A stretch of DNA of 29,847 bases from the IMG/VR virus record IMGVR_UViG_3300046740_000036, positions 1 through 29,847 of that record. The stretch is one strand, 5' to 3'. The DNA comes from a virus. The translations under genes and the position numbers were made by a program. The notes under the pieces are model-generated. The model was given only the letters and a program-made list of their open reading frames with translations. It searched no databases and was not told where the DNA came from. This document shows positions 15,504-28,994 of this stretch, one piece after another; positions within the stretch are counted from its first letter, which is position 1, and each line of letters begins with the position of its first letter.

Positions 15504-16085
15504 CTAGGGCTTGGTGACCGTGGCATGAAGGTCCTGACAAACCTCTTTGTAGTTCGCCACCGCAAACTGCTGAAACTCCTGGTTCCTGAGCAGGATATCC
15601 GGCCGAATCGAATACCCCGTCGCCCAGTTGAAGTTACAGCTGTAGCCGTTCTTCGGATCCACGCTCACATCGGCATGGGGCGCGTTCGCCATCCGCCACG
15701 ACTTCTCCAAGTAGAGATACGTCCACTCGCAGACGGGCGGCATGATGTGCGTCGGGTCGCCATAGGCTCGCGCTGACGCCCAGTGCGGGGTGATGATCTG
15801 GCAACTCCCACCGGGATGCAGCACCCGGAACAGTTCATTGAAGAACTGCACCCGCTGATACTGGTCCAGGTGCTCGAGGAAGTGGCTGCAGTGCGCCTCG
15901 ATGACCGAGTTGTCCTCCCACGGCCACGGAGTCACGCGGAGGTCTACCACCTGATCGACGCCGGGGAAGGGATGGCGGTCTACCCCGAGGAAGCCGTCGC
16001 GTTTATGAGGACCACACCCCAGATCGAGCTTGAGCACCGACTTCATCACCGGCGCAAGTGCCTTGGCTTTTGCGGCTCTACCCAT
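15504..16085 (-). CDS. Class I SAM-dependent methyltransferase, 193 aa
   Basis: The Rossmann SAM-binding motif I is LKLDLGCGPHKRDGFLGVDRHPF (about residues 18-40), with D21 and GCG. It is followed by HCSHFLEHLDQYQRVQFFNELFRVLHPGG, the usual methyltransferase motif IV-like region. The C-terminal third has no clear target-recognition domain. The substrate is unknown; sugars, small molecules or a surface glycan are plausible because a glycosyltransferase lies just upstream. Only the GIY-YIG gene separates the two. ATG 16085 has AGGAG ten bases upstream and overlaps the GIY-YIG stop by eight bases. Confidence 0.8.
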   Translation of the reverse strand: MGRAAKAKALAPVMKSVLKLDLGCGPHKRDGFLGVDRHPFPGVDQVVDLRVTPWPWEDNSVIEAHCSHFLEHLDQYQRVQFFNELFRVLHPGGSCQIITPHWASARAYGDPTHIMPPVCEWTYLYLEKSWRMANAPHADVSVDPKNGYSCNFNWATGYSIRPDILLRNQEFQQFAVANYKEVCQDLHATVTKP

Positions 16086-16842
16086 TACCGTGAATCTCCT
16101 TTGCCGCTCGCGCCTTCGCGAGTCCAGCCAATCTGACCGCCCTGATCACCGGATCTGCCCATTCACGCCGACGTGCCTCAGCAATCTTCTGCTTTCGACT
16201 CTCCGAGCATGGGCCGAGGCGTTGTCCTGTCTTGGATGCGCTAATCTTGCTGCGCCAGTCAGGGCTGGCGGCACGTTCTTGCGCACAAGCTAAGATCTTG
16301 GCTCTCACCTCAGGGCGAGCCAATGCCGACCTCACCGATGCGGCATGTTTACGCTGTGGCTCACCGGTAGCAAGATAGGCGCGATGCTCAAGGGCTTTCT
16401 GTTCCTGGTTAATCTGTGCAGCCTTGGCTCTTATTGCGTTACCACGCAAGCCATATTCTCGCAGGCGCGCTTTCTGATCTGGATCGGAATAGCGTTGTTG
16501 TTGGGCCTTGCTAATAGCCGCTTTCGCCTGCTCATTGCGCGGTCCCAATACGCCTTCTCCACCAGGAGTGACGTTGTAGCCATATGGGGACTGCGTTCGC
16601 TGTGACTGAATAGACTCTTGTTCCATCTGACAGAGCCTGTCCCAGTCATCACACTCCGCAATCACTTCGCGATGGAACGTCTCAGGACCATATTTCCTGA
16701 GAGCCGCATAGAGCACTCCGTTAGTGCGTTTACCCAGAGCATGCTCAACATGCTTCGCCCAACGTGCATCCAACGTCTTCGACGTAATGCCTATGTAGCA
16801 CTTCCCGTTCGGTGCCGTGAGTCGATAGAGGAGTCCCCTCAC
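16078..16842 (-). CDS. GIY-YIG homing endonuclease with NUMOD repeats, 254 aa
   Basis: GTG 16842 overlaps the upstream TGA (GTGA) and has GGAG eight bases away; a TTG at 16863 is a longer alternative. The catalytic domain is at residues 4-90: LLYRLTAPNGKCYIGITSKTLDARW with Y7, the YIG (Y16), R28 and E75. After it come YNVTPGGEG and repeated basic helix segments (KAAISKAQQQRYSDPDQKARLREYG, KISASKTGQRLG, KQKIAEARRREWADP), the NUMOD3-type DNA-binding repeats of phage-borne homing enzymes. It lies between the glycosyltransferase and the methyltransferase in the operon's own direction. Confidence 0.88.
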   Translation of the reverse strand: MRGLLYRLTAPNGKCYIGITSKTLDARWAKHVEHALGKRTNGVLYAALRKYGPETFHREVIAECDDWDRLCQMEQESIQSQRTQSPYGYNVTPGGEGVLGPRNEQAKAAISKAQQQRYSDPDQKARLREYGLRGNAIRAKAAQINQEQKALEHRAYLATGEPQRKHAASVRSALARPEVRAKILACAQERAASPDWRSKISASKTGQRLGPCSESRKQKIAEARRREWADPVIRAVRLAGLAKARAAKEIHGNG

Positions 16843-17546
16843 CACATGATCTCCCCATCCCAATGCCCAACTTTCACGTCACATGCTACGGCGCAACGAT
16901 AGCCGTATTTTCGAGCATCACCCCAAAACACGAGGTCTTGAGTTCCGAAGCCTTCTTTCCCTGCCAATGTCCTAAACCACGGCTTCTTCAACTTTGGATC
17001 CTTGAACATCTTCAAACGCCACAGATTAAAGCCCATTCCAGTTCCGCAGCATTCGACTAATCCACCATTGGGATCGGGCGGCTGTGGCCTGAAGTTCACT
17101 ATCGGATCCTTAGGATCGCCCCAAGCTTGTAAAACGCCTCCGTGTCCCTTCGTGAAATATGCCCCACCAATACAGGCCAATTCTGGATGGGCCTCCATGT
17201 GATCAAGAAGCTTGATCACGCCATCAGACGGAGGAGCATTATCCATCTCTATAGTCAGGATGTATTCCCATGTGCTGAGGTCAGGATGTGCCAACACTTG
17301 CTCAATGGCCTGTGAGTAGGCATCCCCCACCTCCATCCCCTCAGCCAGGATCCGCACCACCCCGTTGTTTGGGGGGAATCCGAGGTTCCAGTGGGACAAA
17401 GCGACCCGCGTGCTCATCGTCTTGTCGGCCGGCAGAATCACGACAATTCTCTGGCGCTTCCACGACCCGCCCTGAATCAGCCGCGCCGAGGTCTTGTGCA
17501 GATCGCCGTTATGCACGCCCGCGAAGTCTTGAACCACCAGAGGCAT
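16839..17546 (-). CDS. Glycosyltransferase, GT-A fold (GT2-like), 235 aa
   Basis: The protein has the GT-A pattern. VALSHWNLGF is the first strand, and YILTIEMDNAPPSDGVIKLLDHMEAHPELACIGGAYF is the central strand with E-M-D-N in place of the metal-binding DxD. GTGMGFNLWRLKMF (acceptor-side loop) and GTQDLVFWGDARKYGYRCAVACDVKVGHWD (C-terminal ED/H segment) follow. This form, with a conserved FWGDARKYGY region, occurs in several phages. It may decorate a virion protein or host surface glycan. TGATG overlaps the LamG gene stop. The acceptor is unknown. Confidence 0.8.
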   Translation of the reverse strand: MPLVVQDFAGVHNGDLHKTSARLIQGGSWKRQRIVVILPADKTMSTRVALSHWNLGFPPNNGVVRILAEGMEVGDAYSQAIEQVLAHPDLSTWEYILTIEMDNAPPSDGVIKLLDHMEAHPELACIGGAYFTKGHGGVLQAWGDPKDPIVNFRPQPPDPNGGLVECCGTGMGFNLWRLKMFKDPKLKKPWFRTLAGKEGFGTQDLVFWGDARKYGYRCAVACDVKVGHWDGEIMW

Positions 17547-18337
17547 CAGTTCTTCACCAGGAGATAGCCCGCTGCGCTTGCGGCAATAGCCGACATGAAA
17601 CTGTAGGCGCGGGTGTTCGGTTGCCAGTAGAGATCCCAGCGGCTTCTGGGATCGTAGAGTGCCCAGACTTCCGCATCGGTCAAGGCGCGGTTATAGATCC
17701 GAACGTCAGCAATCAGCCCGGTAAACCGGCCCGTGCCATCCGACTGTGCCGCGAGCGTTTCAAAGACATTGCCCTTCACCAATCCCGGAGTGATGCTGGT
17801 GGTATCAGTGCCCTTTGACGCGCCATTCAGGAAACAGGCTCGTGACGTGCTCGAATACTCAATTGCCGTGATGTGCTGCCATGTGTTTAAGGTCACATTC
17901 GAGGTGGGGGTTACCGACCCTGTAGATCCATCAAAAGCCTGCCATTGAGGCGTCGCGGTCACAATTTGGAGGTAATACCCATTGAAACCACCCCCTTGGT
18001 TCGCGACCCAGAGTTTCGATCCTCCCGAACTCGCCGTCTCATAACACCAGATGGAGACAGTAAATGGCGAAGCCACAAATGTGCCGATGGATGAGGCTTT
18101 TTGTAGATACGCATCGGTAGCTCCTGAGAACGATGCCGCGAGTCCTCCAATCGTCGTCGCCGCCATCGTGGTGCCAAAGTTGCCAGCCCCATTAAGAATA
18201 AATGGCGGCACTCCATAGACGGCCGAGTAACCGGGCGACATGGGATACCACGCGGTCAACCCTTCGGCCTGCAGTGATCCCTTGTTGACACCAACCGGCC
18301 CAGCAGGCCGCGATCCGCTTCTCGGGAGACTCAACAT
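17546..18337 (-). CDS. LamG-domain (concanavalin A-like) virion protein, 263 aa
   Basis: Residues 25-225 read as a laminin-G/ConA-like jelly-roll: MSPGYSAVY, FTVSIWCYETAS, GYYLQIVT, WQHITAIEY and the closing FTGLIADVRIYNRALTDAEVWALYDP. These folds bind carbohydrates. The C-terminus (LYWQPNTRAYSFM) resembles the conserved tail of phage LamG proteins. It is likely part of an adhesion appendage. ATG 18337 abuts the previous TAG in frame (TAG|ATG) with no good Shine-Dalgarno, so its translation is probably coupled to the gene before. Confidence 0.75.
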   Translation of the reverse strand: MLSLPRSGSRPAGPVGVNKGSLQAEGLTAWYPMSPGYSAVYGVPPFILNGAGNFGTTMAATTIGGLAASFSGATDAYLQKASSIGTFVASPFTVSIWCYETASSGGSKLWVANQGGGFNGYYLQIVTATPQWQAFDGSTGSVTPTSNVTLNTWQHITAIEYSSTSRACFLNGASKGTDTTSITPGLVKGNVFETLAAQSDGTGRFTGLIADVRIYNRALTDAEVWALYDPRSRWDLYWQPNTRAYSFMSAIAASAAGYLLVKN

Positions 18338-19379: not shown

Positions 19380-20018
19380 TTACACCACGGGAAGAATGTT
19401 GCCAGGAGATGCCACGGGTGGCTGCACATACAAATTGATCATCGCCCCGACCCCAGCACCAGTCCATGACCAGGACGGATTCTGTGCGGTGGCGTTCGTT
19501 TCCACGAGATACCCTAAGGCACTGCCAATTTGCGACCCGGCAATGAACGAAAACTGATCGGTAATCGTGTAACTCGAATCAACCGCGTAGGTCGTTTGCA
19601 CGCGATTCGAGAGCGCACTGATCATGAGGCAGTTCGCTACTTCTGGCGTAATATTCCCCGTCGTCAATGATGTCGCACTCGCACTCGACGCGATCAGGCT
19701 CTTGCTCGTCACAAACGAGGTCGCCGTGCCACTAAAGGCGGCGACACAAAACGTCGGATTGTTCGCCGTCGCGAGCGTAAAGGTATGCCCGGTGCCAACG
19801 GTCGGGTTGATGGAAAAGTAGACATCCACACCACTATTCGACTGGATCGTGTTCCCAGCCACAACCTGCCAGACATTGCTCTTACTATCACTCACCGTCG
19901 CCTGAGGCGCACCATTGTAACCAACCACCGCGACCAACAATGTCGCCCCGGTCGTATTGATGGAACTCGTTGTGCCTGCTAAGGCCAACCCCACATGAGA
20001 CACCAACGCAATCGCCAT
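19380..20018 (-). CDS. Hypothetical virion protein, beta-sandwich type, 212 aa
   Basis: ATG 20018 overlaps the TAA of the fibre gene (TAATG), which is why I choose it over an earlier in-frame start at 20063. The sequence is Ser/Thr/Ala/Gly-rich with many beta strands (TTGATLLVAVVGYNG, VNVYFSINPTVGTGHTFTLATAN-like segments, SWSWTGAGVGAMINLYVQPP). Proteins of this kind occur among phage tail fibre clusters. No catalytic residues or membrane segments. Likely virion-attached. Confidence 0.55.
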   Translation of the reverse strand: MAIALVSHVGLALAGTTSSINTTGATLLVAVVGYNGAPQATVSDSKSNVWQVVAGNTIQSNSGVDVYFSINPTVGTGHTFTLATANNPTFCVAAFSGTATSFVTSKSLIASSASATSLTTGNITPEVANCLMISALSNRVQTTYAVDSSYTITDQFSFIAGSQIGSALGYLVETNATAQNPSWSWTGAGVGAMINLYVQPPVASPGNILPVV

Positions 20019-22960
20019 TACTTGGTCAATCCTCGCACCTGGAAGTTGAAGTAGGGCACCCACTGAGAGGCCAGAGACGACAGGTCACTGCTCAGCGCGA
20101 TGTTCGTCGGAGGCACCATGTTCGCCGCTGCGGTATAGACACCATACGGGATGATCTGCGACCGTGCCGTCGTCGCCGTGCTGCCGAAGTTACGATACAG
20201 GCTGTCCAGCGCGAGTCTGGACATGCCCACCAGTGCGCCGAAACTGTAATCGGATCCGGTCGTCAGGTTGCCCGTCGATGCTCGCGCACGAGTGGATGAC
20301 CACGCATAGCCGAGCCAGTAGATGCCGGCGCTGATGGTCGTATTGAACGGGAACGGCTGCACCAGCGACCCGCTCATCAGGTTCCGACCGCTGCTGAACA
20401 CCGTGGACACCAGCGTGGAGTTCCCTGACGAGTTCGCAATCGTGCTCGATCCCGCATTGGCATACTGCACAAACGTCGTGCCCCCATCACTCCCGATATC
20501 GGAGATGTAGGACACGCTCTGCGCCAACGACACCGCGATATTCGTCGCCGCGTTCGTGGAGATGGAGAGCGACTTCGACCAGAGCACTGAGTGACTGTTG
20601 CTCCACAGACTCTCCAGCCGTGTGCTGTTGGTCCCAGTCCCTTGGGAGAACAGCGCGACGTTCGCCTGATAGGTATACGACTGTTGAATCCCACCAGTGC
20701 TAGCAGAGTTGTAGGCCGTCTCTCCGATGTCGAGAAACAGGTTCGCCGTGCCCGTGTTCTGAGCGAGGACGTTGATGCGCCCCCCACTGACGGATCCAAA
20801 CGCCGTGAATGGGGCGAGATACCATGACCCGGCCACGGGCGCAAAACTCGCCGTCGCCGTCAGGAGTGGATAGGGTTCAAGGAACCCATTGAATCCCTCG
20901 ACTGGCGTGGAGAACAGGAGCGTATGACTGCCGTTGTTGGACGTGATCTGGCTGATGTTGACCCCAGCCGTCCCGGCGAACCAGTAGGTGCCCTGCTTGC
21001 TCCCGGAGGTGCCAAACGTGTTCCCCGTGGAGATCCCCAGCGCCCCGATGCCAGCGTGGACGTGATCCTCCGCCACCCACCTAGTGATCGTGCCGACCGA
21101 GTTCGCTGACCCGACTGCCGCTCCGGTCGTGGCCGTCCCGACCGTGCTGGCCGACGCCGTGATGGTGGACCCGTTCAGGCCGAAGGAGATGCCACCGGAG
21201 TTGGAGAACACCACCGACCCGAGGTTATTACTCGTCGTCCCTGCCGAGAAGTTGACCGGCTGTCCGGCCACTGTTGCGCCAGAGATGACCAGTGTATGAC
21301 TGCCATTATTGGACGTGATCTGGCTGAGCGTAATATTTGAACCACCTTGAAACCAATACGTCCCGACCTGACTCCCGGAGGTGCCAGAGGAGTTCCCCGC
21401 CGTCGAGATACCGATCCCAGCCACGCCCGCATGAACGTGATCTTCATGCGCCCACCGGGACACCGTGCCAACGGAGTTCGCTGACCCGACCGGCTGCACG
21501 GTCGTGGCCGATCCCGCCGTCACGTAACTCGTGGTGTTATAGGTGCTGACCGAGAGGGCAATCGTGTTGCTGTTTCCTGAGACGGTCAGGCCGTTATCGC
21601 CAGAGAAATAGAGCTTCGTGCCTTGCAGCGATGACGTCGTGCCAGACGTGTTGCCTTTCAGTTCCCATGCCTGCACATACTTCGACGTATCACCGGAAAG
21701 GGCACCCGTGGTGATGTAGTTCCCCACGCTGAAGACGATGCTATTGCTGCTGCCGGAGACGGTGATCGAGTTCCCGCCTGAGAACCAGAGATCCGTGCCT
21801 TGAGCACTGGAGGTGGTTCCGGCGGTGTTTCCAGTGAGCTTCCAGTTCTGAACGTATTTCGAGGAGTTCGCGGACAGGTCGGCCGTGGTGATGTAGTTCC
21901 CGACCGAGAACACCACCGTATTGCTCGAGCCAGACACCGTGACGTTGTTCCCGCCAGAGACGTAGAGCTTCGTGCCTTGCAGCGAGGACGTGGTGCCTGC
22001 GGTATTCCCAGTCAGTTCCCACGCCTGCACGTATTTCGAGGTGTCCCCTGAGAGCGCACCCGTGGTGATGTAGGGACCGACTGAGATGTCGATGCGCTGC
22101 CCAGTGTTGGAGTTGACCGTGACACCACCACCGACCCCGGAGAACGTCACCGTCCCTGACGTGTAGGTAGTGTTCGACGCGACGATCCCTGAAATCGCCG
22201 TCTGCGCTCCACCCGCGTTGGCTCCGCTGATGACGATGGTGTTGCTCGAGCCAGAGACGGTGATGTTGTTCCCGCCCTGGAAGTGCCAGAGCGTCCCCTG
22301 CAGGCTGCTGGTGGTGCCAGCCGTATTCCCGGTGAGATCCCACGCCTGCGCGTATTTGCTGCTGTTCTGCGAGAGATCCGCCGTCGTCAGGTAGTTGCCG
22401 CTGGTCTGGTAATCAGTCTTGACAGTTGCCGTGATGGTCCCGGCGTTCAGGCCTAAACTCACCCCGTTGCTATCGGCAAACTTGATGGCGGTCTGGTTCC
22501 CTGACGTCGTGCCCGCGCTGAAATTGACCGATCCAGATCCCGCCGTGATCCACGCCGGAACGCCGAGACTCAGCCCGTTGCTGCTGTTCGTGCCGACGAG
22601 CACCGTGCCGGTGGTCGTGGCGGTCGTGATCCCCGTGCCGGCGTAGTCCGTCTTGACCGAGGCGGTAATGCGGGTGGAACCCGACATCCCGAACGTGACG
22701 CCGCCACTGTTCGAGAAGACAATCGTGCCGGTGTTACCAGACTGCGTGCCTGCGGAGATCGCGGCCCCACCCGATCCAGAGCCACCAACCAACTGCCACG
22801 CGGCCCCGTCCCACGAATAGGTATCGCCGGTGTCAGTCTCGTAGAAAAAATATCCGGGATGGGGCGGGGCGTTCGCCGGGGAGGGTGGCGAGGGTGTAAA
22901 CGCCAGTCGCTCGGCGTTGGTGCCTGAGGCGACGAAGTAATTCAGGGTCGAGTCAGACAT
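20018..22960 (-). CDS. Large repetitive tail fibre-like protein, 980 aa
   Basis: Residues 1-60 form an attachment region (PPHPGYFFYETDTGDTYSWDGAAWQ). The middle is built of repeats. Three tandem 59-residue units occupy 299-475, a diverged copy lies at 192-298, and two about 126-residue units at 491-616 and 617-690 each contain ANSVGT and EDHVHAG. The DHVH motif is typical of phage fibre linkers. The C-terminal 290 residues are non-repetitive, rich in Ser/Thr/Ala, and end QVRGLTK; they are the likely receptor-binding head. ATG 22960 overlaps the upstream TGA. It is probably a trimeric fibre; adhesin function is inferred from repeat architecture. Confidence 0.7.
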   Translation of the reverse strand: MSDSTLNYFVASGTNAERLAFTPSPPSPANAPPHPGYFFYETDTGDTYSWDGAAWQLVGGSGSGGAAISAGTQSGNTGTIVFSNSGGVTFGMSGSTRITASVKTDYAGTGITTATTTGTVLVGTNSSNGLSLGVPAWITAGSGSVNFSAGTTSGNQTAIKFADSNGVSLGLNAGTITATVKTDYQTSGNYLTTADLSQNSSKYAQAWDLTGNTAGTTSSLQGTLWHFQGGNNITVSGSSNTIVISGANAGGAQTAISGIVASNTTYTSGTVTFSGVGGGVTVNSNTGQRIDISVGPYITTGALSGDTSKYVQAWELTGNTAGTTSSLQGTKLYVSGGNNVTVSGSSNTVVFSVGNYITTADLSANSSKYVQNWKLTGNTAGTTSSAQGTDLWFSGGNSITVSGSSNSIVFSVGNYITTGALSGDTSKYVQAWELKGNTSGTTSSLQGTKLYFSGDNGLTVSGNSNTIALSVSTYNTTSYVTAGSATTVQPVGSANSVGTVSRWAHEDHVHAGVAGIGISTAGNSSGTSGSQVGTYWFQGGSNITLSQITSNNGSHTLVISGATVAGQPVNFSAGTTSNNLGSVVFSNSGGISFGLNGSTITASASTVGTATTGAAVGSANSVGTITRWVAEDHVHAGIGALGISTGNTFGTSGSKQGTYWFAGTAGVNISQITSNNGSHTLLFSTPVEGFNGFLEPYPLLTATASFAPVAGSWYLAPFTAFGSVSGGRINVLAQNTGTANLFLDIGETAYNSASTGGIQQSYTYQANVALFSQGTGTNSTRLESLWSNSHSVLWSKSLSISTNAATNIAVSLAQSVSYISDIGSDGGTTFVQYANAGSSTIANSSGNSTLVSTVFSSGRNLMSGSLVQPFPFNTTISAGIYWLGYAWSSTRARASTGNLTTGSDYSFGALVGMSRLALDSLYRNFGSTATTARSQIIPYGVYTAAANMVPPTNIALSSDLSSLASQWVPYFNFQVRGLTK
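21536..22066 (-). repeat. Three tandem 177-bp (59-residue) repeats in the fibre gene
   Basis: Codons 299-475 consist of three in-frame units beginning TTGALSGDTSKYVQAWEL or TTADLSANSSKYVQNWKL. Each runs on through GNTAGTTSS, a QGT-x-L-x-F/V-SGGN segment and VSGSSN. Units 1 and 3 share the GALSGDTSKYVQAWEL start; unit 2 matches the diverged unit upstream (ADLSxNSSKYxQ). The pattern suggests an alternating duplication. Confidence 0.8.
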
Positions 22961-24258
22961 CAGGATGGACCCGCCACCAGAATCAACACCCCGGCCCCGT
23001 CAGTGACGAAGACCGGAGGCTCCGCGCCGGTCACGACGGGAATCCAGCCACTGCCGAGCGCAGAAAGGCAGTCAGATTGTATCGCAGAGCATGGGATCGT
23101 GCCGGGAAGGATGTTCCCGCCATCGATCACGGTCAGTCCGGTATCCGTTCCTGTTCCACCATGTCCAGGATCGAGCACGCCTGTCGCTTGTGACAGGTTC
23201 GCGGGAGCCACCGCTTGCTTGGCGAGCGTGTCCCACCACGCCTGATACTGTCGCGCCCCTTCCGACCCCACGAAGCCACTGCCATCGGGCTTCATGGCCC
23301 TGCGTGGCTGCTTGGTCGCTTGGAGTGACCCACCTTCGATAGGACCGACGGTGAAATTGCCCGTGGTGCCGGCCGTCGAAGCACCGATGACGAGCGATCC
23401 AGTCGTCGTGGACCCCAGCGCCGTGCCACCCGTCGTGACGGTCAGGTCCGCGATCCGCATGTCCGTCGGCAGTTCGCCGGTGCTCACCGACCAGCCCACC
23501 CGGACCGTTCCCGCGGCCATCGACACCGCATCAGGGTTGAACAGGTTCGCGGAGGTAGACAGCACGAACCCATTGCTGGAGGTCGCCGGCCGAATCGTCA
23601 GTTGGGTGTTCGTGAGTTCCACCACCCAGATGACGCTGGAGATGACCACCGGGACCATCGCCGCCACCACTTCGCCTGTCCGTGGCGCGAAGGACTGCAA
23701 GTCGCCAGTTGCCGTATCTCGGAGATGCCAGTTGCTGGAGGTGTCCTGGTAGGCGACTGACCCGTTCTTGCTCCGCAGCCGATTGGACCCGTCGAGGACC
23801 GTCGTGGAGTTGATCCAGAGTTGTGCGCCAACCGTGTTGTAGGAGACCAGTCCCGCATCGGCGGTGTAGTTCTGCACCACCACCATGCGACCCGTCTCGT
23901 CCAAATCCCCAAGAGCCGCAAGCGGCAGCGTGGCGCGGATGTTCGACCGAACGCCTTTGAGTGCGCCGCCCGTCAGGAACGCCGCCCAGAAGTTATTCCC
24001 GGCTCTGAACTGGGTCGCCGCGTCTGTCACCCCGCTAGGAGTGGCGTCCAGAACGCTCAGGGTGTCCGTGGAGACGATCAGTTTACGGAGGAGGTATCCA
24101 GCCCCGAGGTCGGCCTGACCGCCACATGTGTCGTCATCCAGCCAGCCCCAGCCCCCACCCGTCGCGGTGGCGAGTGAGGCCGGAACAGCCCCATTAATCC
24201 CAATGGTCCCGCCGCCCTGCCCTGAGAGGATCTTTCCGGTGGTCGGTGACAGTCTCAT
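22960..24258 (-). CDS. Tail fibre-like protein, 432 aa
   Basis: The protein is Ser/Thr/Gly/Ala-rich beta structure, for example MRLSPTTGKILSGQGGGTIGI at the start, and VVELTNTQLTIRPATSSNGFVL. Near the C-terminus, ATGVLDPGHGGTGTDTGLTV carries the LxxGHGGTG motif common in phage tail fibres. It ends in a hydrophobic strand (VFVTDGAGVLILVAG). The ATG at 24258 has no recognisable Shine-Dalgarno. Its natural upstream neighbour has been displaced by the inverted HNH gene, and the antisense frame over that gene ends as ATGA on this start. Likely a virion appendage. Confidence 0.65.
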   Translation of the reverse strand: MRLSPTTGKILSGQGGGTIGINGAVPASLATATGGGWGWLDDDTCGGQADLGAGYLLRKLIVSTDTLSVLDATPSGVTDAATQFRAGNNFWAAFLTGGALKGVRSNIRATLPLAALGDLDETGRMVVVQNYTADAGLVSYNTVGAQLWINSTTVLDGSNRLRSKNGSVAYQDTSSNWHLRDTATGDLQSFAPRTGEVVAAMVPVVISSVIWVVELTNTQLTIRPATSSNGFVLSTSANLFNPDAVSMAAGTVRVGWSVSTGELPTDMRIADLTVTTGGTALGSTTTGSLVIGASTAGTTGNFTVGPIEGGSLQATKQPRRAMKPDGSGFVGSEGARQYQAWWDTLAKQAVAPANLSQATGVLDPGHGGTGTDTGLTVIDGGNILPGTIPCSAIQSDCLSALGSGWIPVVTGAEPPVFVTDGAGVLILVAGPS

Positions 24259-24287: not shown

Positions 24288-24863
24288 ATGGCTAGGCCGC
24301 ATGGACTTTCCGGCGAAGACAATAACAAGGCAAAGGTAACGGCGCAGGACGTTTTGGCAATCAGAGACAGCAGAGAATCTGGGCCGATACTGGCTCAACG
24401 CTATGGTGTAACCGAGGGAACCATCAGCGACATTCGCTGCCGCCGTTCTTGGGACCATCTTCCAGCCCAGCGACGGTGTGATGAGCCGGGCGAAGAATGG
24501 CGTCCAGTGGTCGGCTTTGAGGATCGATATGAAGTCTCCAACCTCGGCCGGATTCGCTCGCTGTTCTCTCGCACAGGAATGATCCGAAACACGAAAGCCG
24601 ACAAACTGGGTTACCACCGTATCGCCTTGATCCGAAATAAGTCTCGGATCGATGCGCTGTTCCATCGAATCGTTGCGGCTGCGTTCCTGGGCCTGTGCCC
24701 AATAGGGTTTCAGGTTAATCATAAAAACGGCGACAAATCTGATAATAGGAGCGCAAATCTTGAATATCTCACCCCTAAAGAAAATGTCCGCCATGCGATG
24801 AGACTCGGCCTCCGGCGCTCCAAGAAACGTGTTCATGATGTGCCGAGCACTGCGTCTAGGTAA
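24288..24863 (+). CDS. NUMOD4-HNH homing endonuclease with N-terminal HTH, inverted, 191 aa
   Basis: Three modules are visible. Residues 15-58 form a helix-turn-helix of the resolvase-like kind (KVTAQDVLAIRDSRES, ILAQRYGVTEGTISDIRCRRSW). Residues 68-110 form NUMOD4 (GEEWRPVVGFEDRYEVSNLGRIRS). Residues 125-172 form HNH_3 (HRIVAAAFLGL, FQVNHKNGDKSDNRSANLEYLT with H145 and N157, NVRHAM). It cuts against the late operon in the gap between two fibre genes and overlaps the 3' end of the upstream gene by 31 bases. A homing or group-I-intron origin is likely, but no intron is seen. Confidence 0.9.
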   Translation: MARPHGLSGEDNNKAKVTAQDVLAIRDSRESGPILAQRYGVTEGTISDIRCRRSWDHLPAQRRCDEPGEEWRPVVGFEDRYEVSNLGRIRSLFSRTGMIRNTKADKLGYHRIALIRNKSRIDALFHRIVAAAFLGLCPIGFQVNHKNGDKSDNRSANLEYLTPKENVRHAMRLGLRRSKKRVHDVPSTASR

Positions 24864-27082
24864 CCATTTACGACCACCCAAGCGACAGGATCCGTGCACG
24901 CAATCCGATACACCCGGTCCCGGCTACTGCCCATTCGCCGCAGGATCGCTCTGGTCCGAAATGCCCCAATCGCCCCGGTCTGGACGAAGTGGATGTCACT
25001 CCACGTATGCCCCCCATCATCCGACCAGTCGATCTCAAGCAGCGGATCCGAGCCTTGCCCCGTGCTGATGCCGTTGCCGGCGTAGAGGTCAATCTGAAGC
25101 TTGGAGAAGAACTGCCGCATCTGCTCCTGACCAATGTGCGGGAACCACCGCTCCCTTCGGATCAGATATTCGGTGCCACTATCTCCGCTCGGCGTAGGAG
25201 GAAGTGGAGGACTGATGGCTTCGCGCAGGATAAATGACGGACAGGACGTAGACAACCCAAACCGTGCCACCGGACTCGCCGTCGCCGCAGCGCTATAGAT
25301 ACCTTGGTCGAATGTTGCCTGAGTCACCGTCGCAAGAATTACCCCAGTCGCAGCCACTATGTTGTAATAACTACAGGTGTCCGTGGCGACTTCATCATGT
25401 AACCGAAGCCAAAACGTCGTCGGATCGTCAAGGGCATGAAACAGCGATCCAAAGCTACTATTCGTAGTGAAGTTGTAGGTATTCAGCGTCGCGCCCGCTG
25501 CATCGTATCTACGAACAAATGTTAGCGCACCACCTCCAGACGGTTTTTGGTAGATCGCCAGCACGCTATCATCACCCAATACCATGAGGTCATTAGTGGT
25601 ATAGCTAGCGACTCCAGCGACAAGGTTCGCTCCGAATGTATTGGTATTCGGATTCCACTGCTGGATCGGTGCGTTTATGGACGAACTTTGACCAGTGGTA
25701 TAGATAATAGACTCGTCATTACTCGCTGCCGCATTTACAAGACCCAGTGCTGGCAGCGTCCATGTATCCGTGACGATTCCATCTCCGTCTACCCGGTTGA
25801 TAAACGCCGTGCCTGGGAACGTGCCAGAGTTTCCTACATAAAACACCTGCGCTCCAACGCAGGTCCGCACGGAACTGTTACTGCGTGAGGTCAAGCCTGA
25901 GACAGTCGCGATAACGTCTAGCTGACCATTGAACAACTTGAACGTGCGGTCGTCATCATCGGCGAGTAACACCCGCCCATTTTCTAGAACGTCTCCACCG
26001 AGTTCGCTATTAGTGACCGCAACATCGAAAAACCTTAATACCTGATAATTCGCCCCATTCGTAGGGCTGACGACGGCAGTGAAAAACCCCGACGTATCGT
26101 CATTGTCGAAGATCGCACCTATTGGAACTGCGGATGTCGGACCTGGAACAGCAGAGAGTGTCACGTCTACGGATGGAGGAGTGCTACCGAACTTGTGGAC
26201 ATACAAATACAGCAATGTGCCTTCAGATTGCGGCACTTGGATCGGCTTGTTAGTCGCCTGTAATGACAAGAACGATGTAGTGCCGTCTGATTCATAGACG
26301 GTAATCCCGATATTTTCGGTGGCAATATCGGAATAGGCCCAGAATCCCGCCATCAACTCGTCGGCATGTCCGGTGTAGGAATACCAGGCATACAAGCCAT
26401 CCCCGAAGTCTTGCGTGATGGTCTGCGGCAGCGTGGCGAAGGCCGTAGCGGTCGCTGCACTACTATTCGTCGGTATGGATGGATCAGAAACGAAAGACCC
26501 AGATCCTATCTGTGTCCAGTCATGCCCATTCCCGCTCTGGTCGGTGACCGTCGAGGAGAATGGGCAATCCATGTAGAGATTCGACGTATGGACCGCAGAC
26601 GTCGCCTGCATCTCCAAGAGAAGCTGGGCGGCACTCAACGCTGTCGTCCATTCCCGGCAGTAGGCCACCGTCACGTCGGTCTGAGCGGTGATAGTATCGC
26701 CGCCCATAAACTCAAATCCGTTCGTAAACGCCGATCGATTCAGTGTGAAGGTGCCTATGGATGTCGCATTGATGTAGAGCCGCTGAGTGGTGCCACTCTG
26801 CGTCCACGCATAGAACGACCATGTATCCGCTGTCGGAGGTGTCCCGTTTACTGTTCCAGGTCCAGTCCCCTGCAGAATGGCATTCCCTGAGTTGGCATAT
26901 AACGCCGTGTAGTTGGTATAGACCGCAGGATCATCAAGGATCGCATAGGCCACCTGATGCGCCGGAGACGTTGACACGGTGGGGAACTTCGCCCAGAAAC
27001 AGACCGTGCTATTACCAGACGCAGGAAGTAGCGACGTGGTGCGCTTCAGGTAATCCGACGTGGTGGCGAAGTGGACCGCCAT
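24833..27082 (-). CDS. LamG/propeller protein fused to a gp10-like C-terminal domain, 749 aa
   Basis: Residues 1-180 are a LamG/ConA-like module (CFWAKFPTV, SFYAWTQSG, AQTDVTVAYCREWTTALSAAQLLLEM). The middle (about 180-630) is repetitive beta structure, consistent with a propeller (GRVLLADDDDRTFKLF, GDGIVTDTWTLPALG, NDESIIYTTGQSS). The last 110 residues (IRRERWFPHIGQEQMRQFF, GQGSDPLLEIDWSDDGGHTW, GAFRTRAILRRMGSSRDRVYRI) are the C-terminal domain I know from P22 gp10-type stabilisation proteins, where it normally follows the propeller in the same chain. Hand counts of three 60-base lines inside (25501, 25561, 25681) give 29, 30 and 25 GC, against 34 and 37 in flanking lines 27841 and 28321. 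Confidence 0.8.
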   Translation of the reverse strand: MAVHFATTSDYLKRTTSLLPASGNSTVCFWAKFPTVSTSPAHQVAYAILDDPAVYTNYTALYANSGNAILQGTGPGTVNGTPPTADTWSFYAWTQSGTTQRLYINATSIGTFTLNRSAFTNGFEFMGGDTITAQTDVTVAYCREWTTALSAAQLLLEMQATSAVHTSNLYMDCPFSSTVTDQSGNGHDWTQIGSGSFVSDPSIPTNSSAATATAFATLPQTITQDFGDGLYAWYSYTGHADELMAGFWAYSDIATENIGITVYESDGTTSFLSLQATNKPIQVPQSEGTLLYLYVHKFGSTPPSVDVTLSAVPGPTSAVPIGAIFDNDDTSGFFTAVVSPTNGANYQVLRFFDVAVTNSELGGDVLENGRVLLADDDDRTFKLFNGQLDVIATVSGLTSRSNSSVRTCVGAQVFYVGNSGTFPGTAFINRVDGDGIVTDTWTLPALGLVNAAASNDESIIYTTGQSSSINAPIQQWNPNTNTFGANLVAGVASYTTNDLMVLGDDSVLAIYQKPSGGGALTFVRRYDAAGATLNTYNFTTNSSFGSLFHALDDPTTFWLRLHDEVATDTCSYYNIVAATGVILATVTQATFDQGIYSAAATASPVARFGLSTSCPSFILREAISPPLPPTPSGDSGTEYLIRRERWFPHIGQEQMRQFFSKLQIDLYAGNGISTGQGSDPLLEIDWSDDGGHTWSDIHFVQTGAIGAFRTRAILRRMGSSRDRVYRIACTDPVAWVVVNGYLDAVLGTS

Positions 27083-28240
27083 CTAGAGGCCTGTCCCCAC
27101 CATAATGCGATCTGTAGTCAGGTCCAGTCCCTGCCGGTAGATCGTTCCGCTCTGCCGATCCCCCACCAGATGAGTCCCAAACGCAAACGCATGACAACGG
27201 CCAAGATGCGGATAATGCCGCCGAGTCTTCGGACTCCACTGCGACCGCTCACACCAGACCCCCGTCGCCGCATCGAAGACCCAACTCGTCTCCATGTCCG
27301 GCGCGTAGAGGTGATAGAACGAGTGCCCCGCCTCGCTGTAGCACCAGCCAATCGACTGGTCCATGCCTTCCGCTCGATTGAAGAAGATCTCGCTCGAGAA
27401 GCTAGACACGCGCTGGAAGTTGTAGCCGTTGATCCGCATCACCTGATCGCGGCCGTTCTCATTCCCGCTCAACAGGAACAGCGTGTTGTCCATCTTTGCG
27501 ACGGAGTTCTGTGCCGCAACCCCCCACTCCACCACCGTCTCAGAGATGGGCACATACGGGGTGTCCGCATCCCCGCTGTCGAAGTAGGGCAGGGAGTGCT
27601 GTGACCCAAACAACCAGAGCGTTTCATGGCTCACCGCCATCTGCACGAGGTTGTCCGAGAACAGCGAGACTTCCTCCACCTGCAGCGGATCCCACGTCGT
27701 CGCGTCTTCAAGGGCGGAGTAATAGAACTGACGCGTGCCCCCTCTGAGCGCAATGAAGTCGGAGTCAAAGAACACTACCGTCTGCACCGGCTGCATGAAG
27801 TTGATGCTGGTGACGTGCGTCAGCGTGTAGGTCGGGCTAAACGTCGTCAGATCGAGCACGTAGAGTTGCCCGAATGACGTCAGCGCCAGTTGGTTGCTCT
27901 GCGTCCCTGACGAGGCGAATGACACACAATCCGACCCACCGAAACTCGAGGCTCCGACCGACCCGATGACCGAGACATTCCCAGACGCATAGACTTCATG
28001 CAGGAACTCGCCACCGACCGCAAAGCACCGCCCGTCCTGGTAGAAGATCCCACGGACAGGACCGGCCGAGAGGGTAGCGAACGGGGTCAGGCCGGGACGG
28101 GGGACGAGTTGGCCCTGCGGGTTCTTCCCAGAGGCTCCGCCGTCCGGTTGTTCGACAAACCAGTTGATCGTGCGTTCGGCGTCCGCGTTGACCGAGTAGA
28201 CCGAACCGGAAGGGCCAATGACGCCGGGGGCAACAGGCAT
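27083..28240 (-). CDS. gp10-like packaged-DNA stabilisation protein, N-terminal propeller part, 385 aa
   Basis: The start IGPSGSVYSVNADAERTINWFVEQPD, then LVPRPGLTPFATLSAGPVRGIF and DGRCFAVGGEFLHEV, is the conserved opening of a large podovirus head-tail protein family. In that family a beta-propeller is followed by a C-terminal beta domain. Here the chain stops after the last propeller blade (HLVGDRQSGTIYRQGLDLTTDRIMVGTGL). The missing C-terminal domain sits at the end of the next gene. TAG (27083-27085) is followed in frame by ATG (27080-27082). It should plug the portal with the gp4-like factor. GAGGG lies four bases before ATG 28240. Confidence 0.8.
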   Translation of the reverse strand: MPVAPGVIGPSGSVYSVNADAERTINWFVEQPDGGASGKNPQGQLVPRPGLTPFATLSAGPVRGIFYQDGRCFAVGGEFLHEVYASGNVSVIGSVGASSFGGSDCVSFASSGTQSNQLALTSFGQLYVLDLTTFSPTYTLTHVTSINFMQPVQTVVFFDSDFIALRGGTRQFYYSALEDATTWDPLQVEEVSLFSDNLVQMAVSHETLWLFGSQHSLPYFDSGDADTPYVPISETVVEWGVAAQNSVAKMDNTLFLLSGNENGRDQVMRINGYNFQRVSSFSSEIFFNRAEGMDQSIGWCYSEAGHSFYHLYAPDMETSWVFDAATGVWCERSQWSPKTRRHYPHLGRCHAFAFGTHLVGDRQSGTIYRQGLDLTTDRIMVGTGL

Positions 28241-28247
28241 CTAACCC

Positions 28248-28994
28248 TCAGGGCTGATCGGTGTTGATGTTATACCAGCCGCTCTTGTCCGTCCCGCCCG
28301 TGATCCCCGGATCGAGCGAGAGGTCGCTGACCTTCACGTTGGTCCGCTTCACGTCCTTGAGTGACCCGACCGCGTTCTGCATCACCAACTGATCAACAGG
28401 TCGTCCGTAGTAGGGACAGAGTTCCAGTGCGAGGTTCCACTTGAACATCCGCGAGTAACCCGGAGCCATGACCAGCGACGTCGAGAGGTTCGTAAACTGC
28501 GCGGTCTGCGACCCGAGGTAGATGGCGCAGTAGTTCCCCGTCGCCGTAGGGGTCGGGTAGAGCAGGATCGTGCCGAGGCCCGTCGCAATCGTCGGGTTGT
28601 AGTAAATCTGCGTCGGGATGGCGTTCGTCAGCGTCTTGACGCGAATCGCGGCATAGGCATCATCCGTCAACGCCACCAGCGGAATCTCGTTCTCGCTCGT
28701 GGTGTTGTAGTTCAGAATGACGCCGGCATTCTCGATCTCAATCGGGCGAGGAAGTGTAATGTCTCCCCCCGCTGGCCCAATCGTGTAGGTCGCCTGATTC
28801 GCGACGATGGGGAAGACGTTCCGGTCCACCGTCAGCATCGTCAGGTCGTTGATGACGTAGCTGTCGATCAGGTCGTTGAGAATCCGCAGCCCGAGCGAGC
28901 CGTCCTCCGCAGACAGCGTTTCGCCCGCCGCCGTTACCCCGATGGTCATCAGCGCATCGGTAATGATCGTGCGGGCGGTCGCCGTGACGCTCAT
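28248..28994 (-). CDS. P22 gp4-like head-tail connector (tail accessory factor), 248 aa
   Basis: The opening TARTIITDALMTIGVTAAGETLSAEDGSLGLRILNDLIDSY is the characteristic helical start of phage gp4-like adaptor proteins. It is followed by a Tyr/Thr-rich beta part (VANQATYTIGPAGGD) and a helical tail. This family adds to the portal after packaging to seal the head and prepare tail binding; P22 gp4 is 166 aa, and longer phage members are common. ATG 28994 overlaps the upstream TGA (ATGA). The order gp4-like then gp10-like matches P22. Confidence 0.8.
   Translation of the reverse strand: MSVTATARTIITDALMTIGVTAAGETLSAEDGSLGLRILNDLIDSYVINDLTMLTVDRNVFPIVANQATYTIGPAGGDITLPRPIEIENAGVILNYNTTSENEIPLVALTDDAYAAIRVKTLTNAIPTQIYYNPTIATGLGTILLYPTPTATGNYCAIYLGSQTAQFTNLSTSLVMAPGYSRMFKWNLALELCPYYGRPVDQLVMQNAVGSLKDVKRTNVKVSDLSLDPGITGGTDKSGWYNINTDQP

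Follow-up and report, generated by a model that had tools for sequence, protein, structure and literature searches.

A P22 gp10-type tail hub spread across two genes, with exchangeable modules ahead of its C-terminal platform domain, in a clade of environmental phages

In known short-tailed phages a single chain forms the tail hub, or nozzle, and the fibres are hung on it. The window analyzed here, i.e. the whole 29,847-base IMG/VR virus record IMGVR_UViG_3300046740_000036, raises the question of whether such a hub can also be encoded in two pieces and, if so, what the second piece carries. A preliminary description, made from the letters alone, had placed the opening motifs of a gp10-type stabilisation protein (ERTINWF, PVRGIF, FAVGG) in one gene, here P0001, and its closing motifs (GQGSDP, SDDGGHTW, RMGSSRDRV) at the far end of the next, here P0002. 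We found all of these motifs where they had been placed, and the coordinates, the product lengths in amino acids (aa), and the TAG followed by an in-frame ATG were the same in our analysis. The features concerned are the following.

27083..28240, minus strand: P0001, N-terminal part of the hub protein, P22 gp10/Hc3-type (platform strands and beta-propeller), 385 aa, TAG stop
28061..28240, minus strand: P0001 residues 1-60, putative strands completing the platform with the P0002 C-terminal domain (covariation, and the topology of T7 gp12 and SU10 gp17)
27080..27085, minus strand: junction at which the P0001 TAG (27083-27085) abuts the P0002 ATG (27080-27082) in frame (sequence)
24833..27082, minus strand: P0002, the C-domain carrier (module plus C-terminal platform domain), 749 aa
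24836..25162, minus strand: C-terminal platform domain, P0002 residues 641-749 (PHROG 578 and hhalign)

Two genes covering one hub profile

Compared with PHROG 578 ("head closure Hc3"), P0001 matched profile positions 18-364 of 486 (E 7e-60), and residues 641-740 of P0002 matched positions 369-465 (E 8e-12), so that the two proteins together tile the profile in order, which neither does alone. The P0002 C-terminal domain was also aligned by hhalign with intact relatives of the hub (P 100, E 3.6e-41), and the profile of these relatives in turn matched the solved single-chain hubs of Pan3 (9VYG), Pam1 (7EEQ), P22 gp10, and Sf6 gp8, whose own profiles span both the P0001 part and the P0002 C-terminal domain. 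The domain therefore aligns to the gp10 family and not to an unrelated one, and the tiling bears out the earlier proposal that a gp10-type protein is divided in two here, its C-terminal domain being preceded by some 640 foreign residues.

The structural model of P0001 obtained with AlphaFold2 (AF2) had a predicted local distance difference test score (pLDDT) above 90 for most residues and contained a seven-bladed propeller of the gp10 type. VIA-align gave Z values of 30-34 against the hubs of P22 gp10, Sf6 gp8, Pan3, and Pam1, for example Z 34.0 with 347 aligned residues and a root-mean-square deviation of 5.1 for P22 gp10 (8EAP), and Z 30.5, 310 residues, and 2.5 for Pam1 (7EEQ). The pair thus resembles P22 gp10, Sf6 gp8, and the Hc3 proteins of PHROG 578 (packaged DNA stabilisation protein) in its ordered coverage of the profile, its propeller fold, its presence in one copy per genome, and its position after the adaptor gene. 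However, the P22 gp10-type hubs (PDB 8TVR, 8EAP, and 7SG7; Pam1 7EEQ, Pan3 9VYG) are single chains of about 440-490 aa, whereas the hub here is divided between two chains, the second of which has a 640-aa module ahead of its platform part. Since two genes stand in place of one chain, in the window and in 20 other contigs, we filed the system as a split variant of the P22 gp10/Hc3 family; judged from sequence, it is one hub protein spread across two genes.

Junctions in split and intact relatives

IMG/VR and bacterial genomes were searched with alignments of both parts, and the loci (L numbers) were mapped by hidden Markov models (HMMs) of the two domains. This search revealed 124 intact one-chain loci, the uninterrupted homologues that the preliminary description had suggested looking for, versus 21 distinct contigs split at exactly the same place, counts that depend on the query and are not population frequencies. 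The intact loci have 9-19 residues between one HMM segment and the other, as against 9-14 in the P22 gp10-type hubs named above, and the annotated phages Rhodoferax P26218, DSL-LC05, BA3, VvAW1, PBR31, phiAX1, and ctn9Y15 likewise have a single chain, of 458-489 aa. A scan of bacterial genome contigs yielded two intact relatives only, in metagenome-assembled genomes of Planctomycetota and Acidobacteria.

With this number of contigs, an assembly error, a frameshift, or a pseudogene becomes an extremely improbable source of the split. It is true that the window is a metagenomic contig and that such breaks do happen, as L168 (4272-5794) shows: its hub is broken into two frames at profile positions 89-119, and we treated it as a probable frameshift or assembly error rather than as a further split because it is placed between intact near relatives (L136, L138). 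The 21 split contigs, however, are distinct, have conserved reading frames and start positions, and carry C-terminal domains that are 93-99% identical between near kin.

The junctions themselves bear on whether the halves are made as one chain or as two. Among the 21 split contigs, seven have a 1-nucleotide (nt) overlap (TGATG, TAATG), four a 4-nt overlap, four an in-frame abutment (the window, L002, L003, and L125), and three a gap of 131-388 bp; in two the distance between the halves exceeds 2 kb, and one junction is unclear. Homologous junctions thus take the form of TAG followed by GTG, of TGATG, of TAATG, of (A/G)TGA overlaps, or of gaps, and the C-domain carriers start with a conserved M-A/P regardless of frame. 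Programmed readthrough of the TAG, which would rebuild a single hub chain of 1135 residues with the module inside it, either alone or as a minor product, had been raised in the preliminary description, and the abutment in the window, L002, L003, and L125 is compatible with it. There is no conserved in-frame stop of the kind expected for a readthrough protein, however, given that both halves occupy one frame without a gap in these four contigs only; in the other 17 of 21 the halves lie in other frames or apart and cannot be so joined, which rules out readthrough as a general mechanism. Moreover, the second gene does not always begin with the same start codon (GTG in L002), and other genes of the window phage, such as P0001 and the one that starts at 18337, also have a TAG immediately ahead of their ATG, which thus looks like an ordinary start context there. 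We consider readthrough very improbable in the window as well. Because the halves stand in different frames or apart in 17 of 21 contigs, two separate polypeptides are the simplest reading and are the rule among the split relatives, and where stop and start codons adjoin, the genes may be translationally coupled. Between the hub halves in L005 (3237-3624) and L015 (3438-3825) we noted a reading frame of the CxxC...CxxH (HNH-like) type, together with a small putative membrane peptide.

In the window and in each of eleven whole split records there is one N part and no intact copy, and, with the exception of the record of L116, one C part. A complete gp10-like protein accompanied by a separate copy of the C-terminal domain, the arrangement that would have spoken against a split, was therefore found in none of them.

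The platform domain and the position of the split

The split falls at the turn from the beta-propeller back to the platform domain. In the nozzle protein gp12 of T7, the platform jelly roll is formed by strands from the first 45 residues (three strands) together with the C-terminus, with the fibre dock located on the outside, between the propeller and this platform (PMC6702177); the platform of the SU10 nozzle gp17 is likewise built from both chain ends (PMC9509320). Covariation between hub and C-terminal domain, computed as mutual information with average product correction in the 124 intact gp10-type homologues only and indicative at their effective number of 76, placed 18 of the 40 top pairs (6.1 expected) and 12 of the top 20 in residues 1-60 of the hub. 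P0001 retains this segment. We consider it likely, with good confidence, that the C-terminal 109 residues of P0002 assemble with the N-terminal strands of the hub into one platform.

Other relatives are modified nearby. In L024 and L026-L028 the hub is split after about residue 55, at the other point where the chain passes between platform and propeller: the first 55 residues are encoded together with a module of 250-490 aa, and the following gene, reached through a 4-nt ATGA overlap in L026-L028, encodes the remainder of the hub. These loci also hold an insert inside the C-terminal domain. A third group is unsplit and has about 90-160 extra residues inside this domain (e.g. L017, L129, L142), located between the first C-terminal platform strands and the GQGSDP loop; unsplit hubs with such an insert are L017, L025, L129-L131, L135, L141, L142, L144, L145, L151, and L155. 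Because both split sites and the insert site all touch the platform, they suggest that its outer face is a place where extra domains are tolerated or useful.

In a tree of 135 rows, all split hubs and contig-end fragments formed one clade (Shimodaira-Hasegawa-like approximate likelihood ratio test, SH-aLRT, 97), and in a careful tree of 47 rows the split clade had a bootstrap value of 97 and an SH-aLRT of 88 and was found in 98% of the bootstrap trees. These phylogenies show a split that arose once, in the ancestor of an environmental phage clade. Among the split phages, the identities of the N-half and of the C-half were correlated (Mantel test, 0/2000), showing that the halves evolve in a correlated manner at the level of their sequences.

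These observations also bear on the possibility that P0002 is an independent tail fibre or adhesin that attaches elsewhere, to the adaptor or to another surface of the hub, while P0001 functions without a platform half. In L021 and L022 the C-domain carrier stands kilobases downstream amid fibre-like genes, two carriers accompany a single hub in the record of L116, and AF2 left the C-terminal domain undocked, all of which would fit such an adhesin. Nevertheless, each split record searched keeps exactly the missing half and no other platform, the hub halves co-vary like partners, and P0001 has kept the residues 1-60 that co-vary with this domain in intact hubs; we therefore regard an independent adhesin as unlikely.

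Taken as a whole, a split gp10-type hub whose C-terminal half is a platform-completing plug carrying an exchangeable module is in our judgment a fairly probable explanation of the locus. The gene of a P22 gp10-type hub (nozzle) would have been split once in the clade ancestor, at the turn from propeller to platform, so that the hub gene ends at the split and the remaining platform half forms the last 109 residues of a second, module-bearing protein. The two proteins would be produced separately, mostly from stop/start-coupled genes, and the C-terminal half would pack against the first 60 residues of the hub, thereby completing the platform. Several points weigh against this explanation. Every split member comes from a metagenomic contig with no host assigned; for P0001, Pfam showed no match to gp10 even at E 1; the effective number behind the covariation is small; and the correlation between the halves in the Mantel test partly reflects shared descent and linkage. 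In addition, when the joined chain was modelled by AF2 with the TAG replaced by Gln, as a folding proxy only, from an alignment in which eight C-carrier rows were misaligned onto the hub, the C-terminal domain was not placed on the hub (predicted template modelling score 0.46), nor was it co-superposed with the gp10 structures.

Modules, their exchange, and their possible role

The part of P0002 ahead of its platform domain (residues 1-640) is foreign to the gp10 family and consists of three segments, listed here with the genes flanking the pair.

26624..27061, minus strand: LamG (concanavalin A-like) domain, P0002 residues 8-153 (Pfam Laminin_G_3, E 2.9e-9)
26126..26470, minus strand: second, beta-sandwich-like segment, about P0002 residues 205-319 (low-confidence AF2 strands)
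25217..26125, minus strand: module beta-propeller, about P0002 residues 320-622 (AF2 and VIA-align)
28248..28994, minus strand: 248-aa gene directly upstream of the hub, in the position of a gp4-type tail adaptor (phrog_12985, E 5e-41)
22960..24258, minus strand: 432-aa gene downstream of the C-domain carrier, conserved in L002-L005

The LamG domain had already been recognized in the preliminary description, and it matched PF13385 with 37.7 bits (cut-off 27.6); it is confined to the window and its near kin, while the C-terminal domain of other relatives bears unrelated modules, for most of which Pfam gave no match. The sandwich-like segment is conserved in L002, L003, L006, and L043. Folded alone by AF2, P0002 reached modest confidence (mean pLDDT 58.8), with pLDDT 70-89 across much of residues 410-590 in the module propeller, which VIA-align compared with NHL, TolB, and LRP6 propellers at Z of about 20-21. 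Foldseek ranked gp10 structures first for P0002, which suggested a duplicate of the hub propeller; this ranking arises because a propeller and the C-terminal domain stand in gp10 order, and a duplication was ruled out by profile comparison (P 0.1-0.3%).

As to the neighbours, phrog_12985 carries no assigned function, and the same slot is annotated as tail adaptor in OR003940. A 980-aa, highly repetitive fibre-like protein (NITVSGSSNTIVFSVGNYITT-type repeats) is encoded at 20018-22960 (-); other members, L004 and the record of L116 among them, share its conserved N-terminus. An open reading frame for an HNH/NUMOD4 homing endonuclease (24288-24863, +) runs antisense to the tail operon, its 3' end overlapping that of the C-domain carrier by 31 nt. 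Amid the tail genes there is also a GIY-YIG-type homing endonuclease gene (16078-16863, -), adjoined by a weak glycosyltransferase match (16839-17546).

Modules were compared in 17 carriers and the close kin L002 and L003, which revealed six families without blastp similarity to each other. The first (LamG and/or sandwich and propeller) comprises the window, L002, L003, L015, L019, L020, L043, L115, L117, L125, and L128; the five others are L119/L133, L116/L120/L134, L045, L122, and L021, the last of these being a proline-rich repeat protein. Unrelated modules were found on nearly identical hubs: L133 and L134 share 95% identity in the N part and 99% in the C-terminal domain, and L045 and L125 share 96 and 89%, respectively. 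Mapped on the hub tree, module type required eight changes, no fewer than with shuffled labels. The window's own C-terminal domain is 93-94% identical to those of L002 and L003, its LamG domain is 82% identical to that of L003 and 41% to that of L002, and for the module propeller the figures are 34% (L003) and 55% (L002), so that the modules of the window and its nearest kin read as mosaics. Module exchange among the split phages is thus shown by sequence comparison. In the record of L116 (L181), one hub, which has a 529-aa C-terminal extension, is accompanied by two C-domain carriers with different modules (open frames of 549 and 375 aa), one of them with "GTYAxxGSAADL" repeats.

Transfer of the module had earlier been suggested from hand counts of 42-50% GC inside it against 57-62% in its flanks. 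The idea of transfer is supported, with swaps between near-identical hubs being much better evidence than GC content. The contrast in base composition is real, though smaller than counted: the module has 53.5% GC versus 60.9 and 60.2% in the two hub halves, and 58% versus 78 and 73% at third codon positions. However, the homologous modules of L002 and L003 have 59.6-59.9% GC, like their flanks, and since the low GC is private to the window we dropped it as proof of transfer; for the same reason it is consistent with the window module being a recently acquired allele.

The endonuclease genes lead to a further reading, in which a homing endonuclease or mobile element caused both split and insertion as a neutral accident, tolerated through fold complementation and with no role in adsorption. 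An HNH/NUMOD4 gene adjoining the module, a GIY-YIG gene among the tail genes, the HNH-like frame between the halves of L005 and L015, and a single origin of the split would all speak for this reading, the single origin fitting one accident. The persistence of the split through a deep clade and the presence of six unrelated module families at the same junction point instead to selection on the cargo, and the window's HNH/NUMOD4 gene is antisense and downstream, away from the split. We therefore judge a neutral accident to be quite improbable.

Binding proteins often contain LamG domains, propellers, or jelly rolls, and the pattern of exchange is that of receptor-binding parts. A role of the module in adsorption is plausible, and we lean towards it; it may bind a receptor or a glycan. 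Under the split-hub explanation, six copies of the module would hang outside the tail, at the position of the T7 fibre dock, and the LamG, sandwich, and propeller of the window would most likely form a surface-binding element. Whether the platform C-half is, more broadly, a general docking plug, by which carriers mount unrelated and freely exchanged modules on the tail, seems to us evenly balanced; if it is, one phage may bear more than one plug protein, as in the record of L116.

The arrangement has partial counterparts in known systems. As in the T7 gp12 nozzle, the extra domain would stand between the propeller and the C-terminal platform, but gp12 is one chain whose small jelly-roll dock holds separate fibres (PMC6702177), whereas here the extra domains themselves make up the module and vary completely. 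Large domains are also inserted in the propeller-plus-platform hubs SU10 gp17 (PMC9509320) and crassvirus muzzle gp44 (PMC10172136), there within a single chain and between propeller blades 2 and 3 (or in blade 3), and here at the propeller/platform crossing and with a gene break. Like modular phage receptor-binding proteins, the carriers combine a conserved attachment domain with unrelated modules swapped between near-identical phages; the anchor of those proteins, however, is usually N-terminal and belongs to a separate trimeric fibre or spike, whereas here it would be C-terminal and make up one half of the platform domain of the hub itself. In the open literature searched we found no description of a split gp10 or nozzle. 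The parts (gp10, LamG, propeller) are ordinary, and what appears new is their arrangement as a naturally split hub whose C-terminal half serves as a plug for unrelated modules.

A whole clade of phages would have opened its hub chain at the propeller/platform crossing, turning one half of a structural domain into an exchangeable anchor. If this is true, the hub halves are a natural split-protein pair, and phage adhesins have a new way of attaching, namely by completing the fold of the hub rather than through a fibre dock. The invariant 109-residue C-terminal tag would then flag adsorption modules in uncultured phages, and the system would offer a direct test of which part of the hub needs covalent continuity to hold pressurised DNA.

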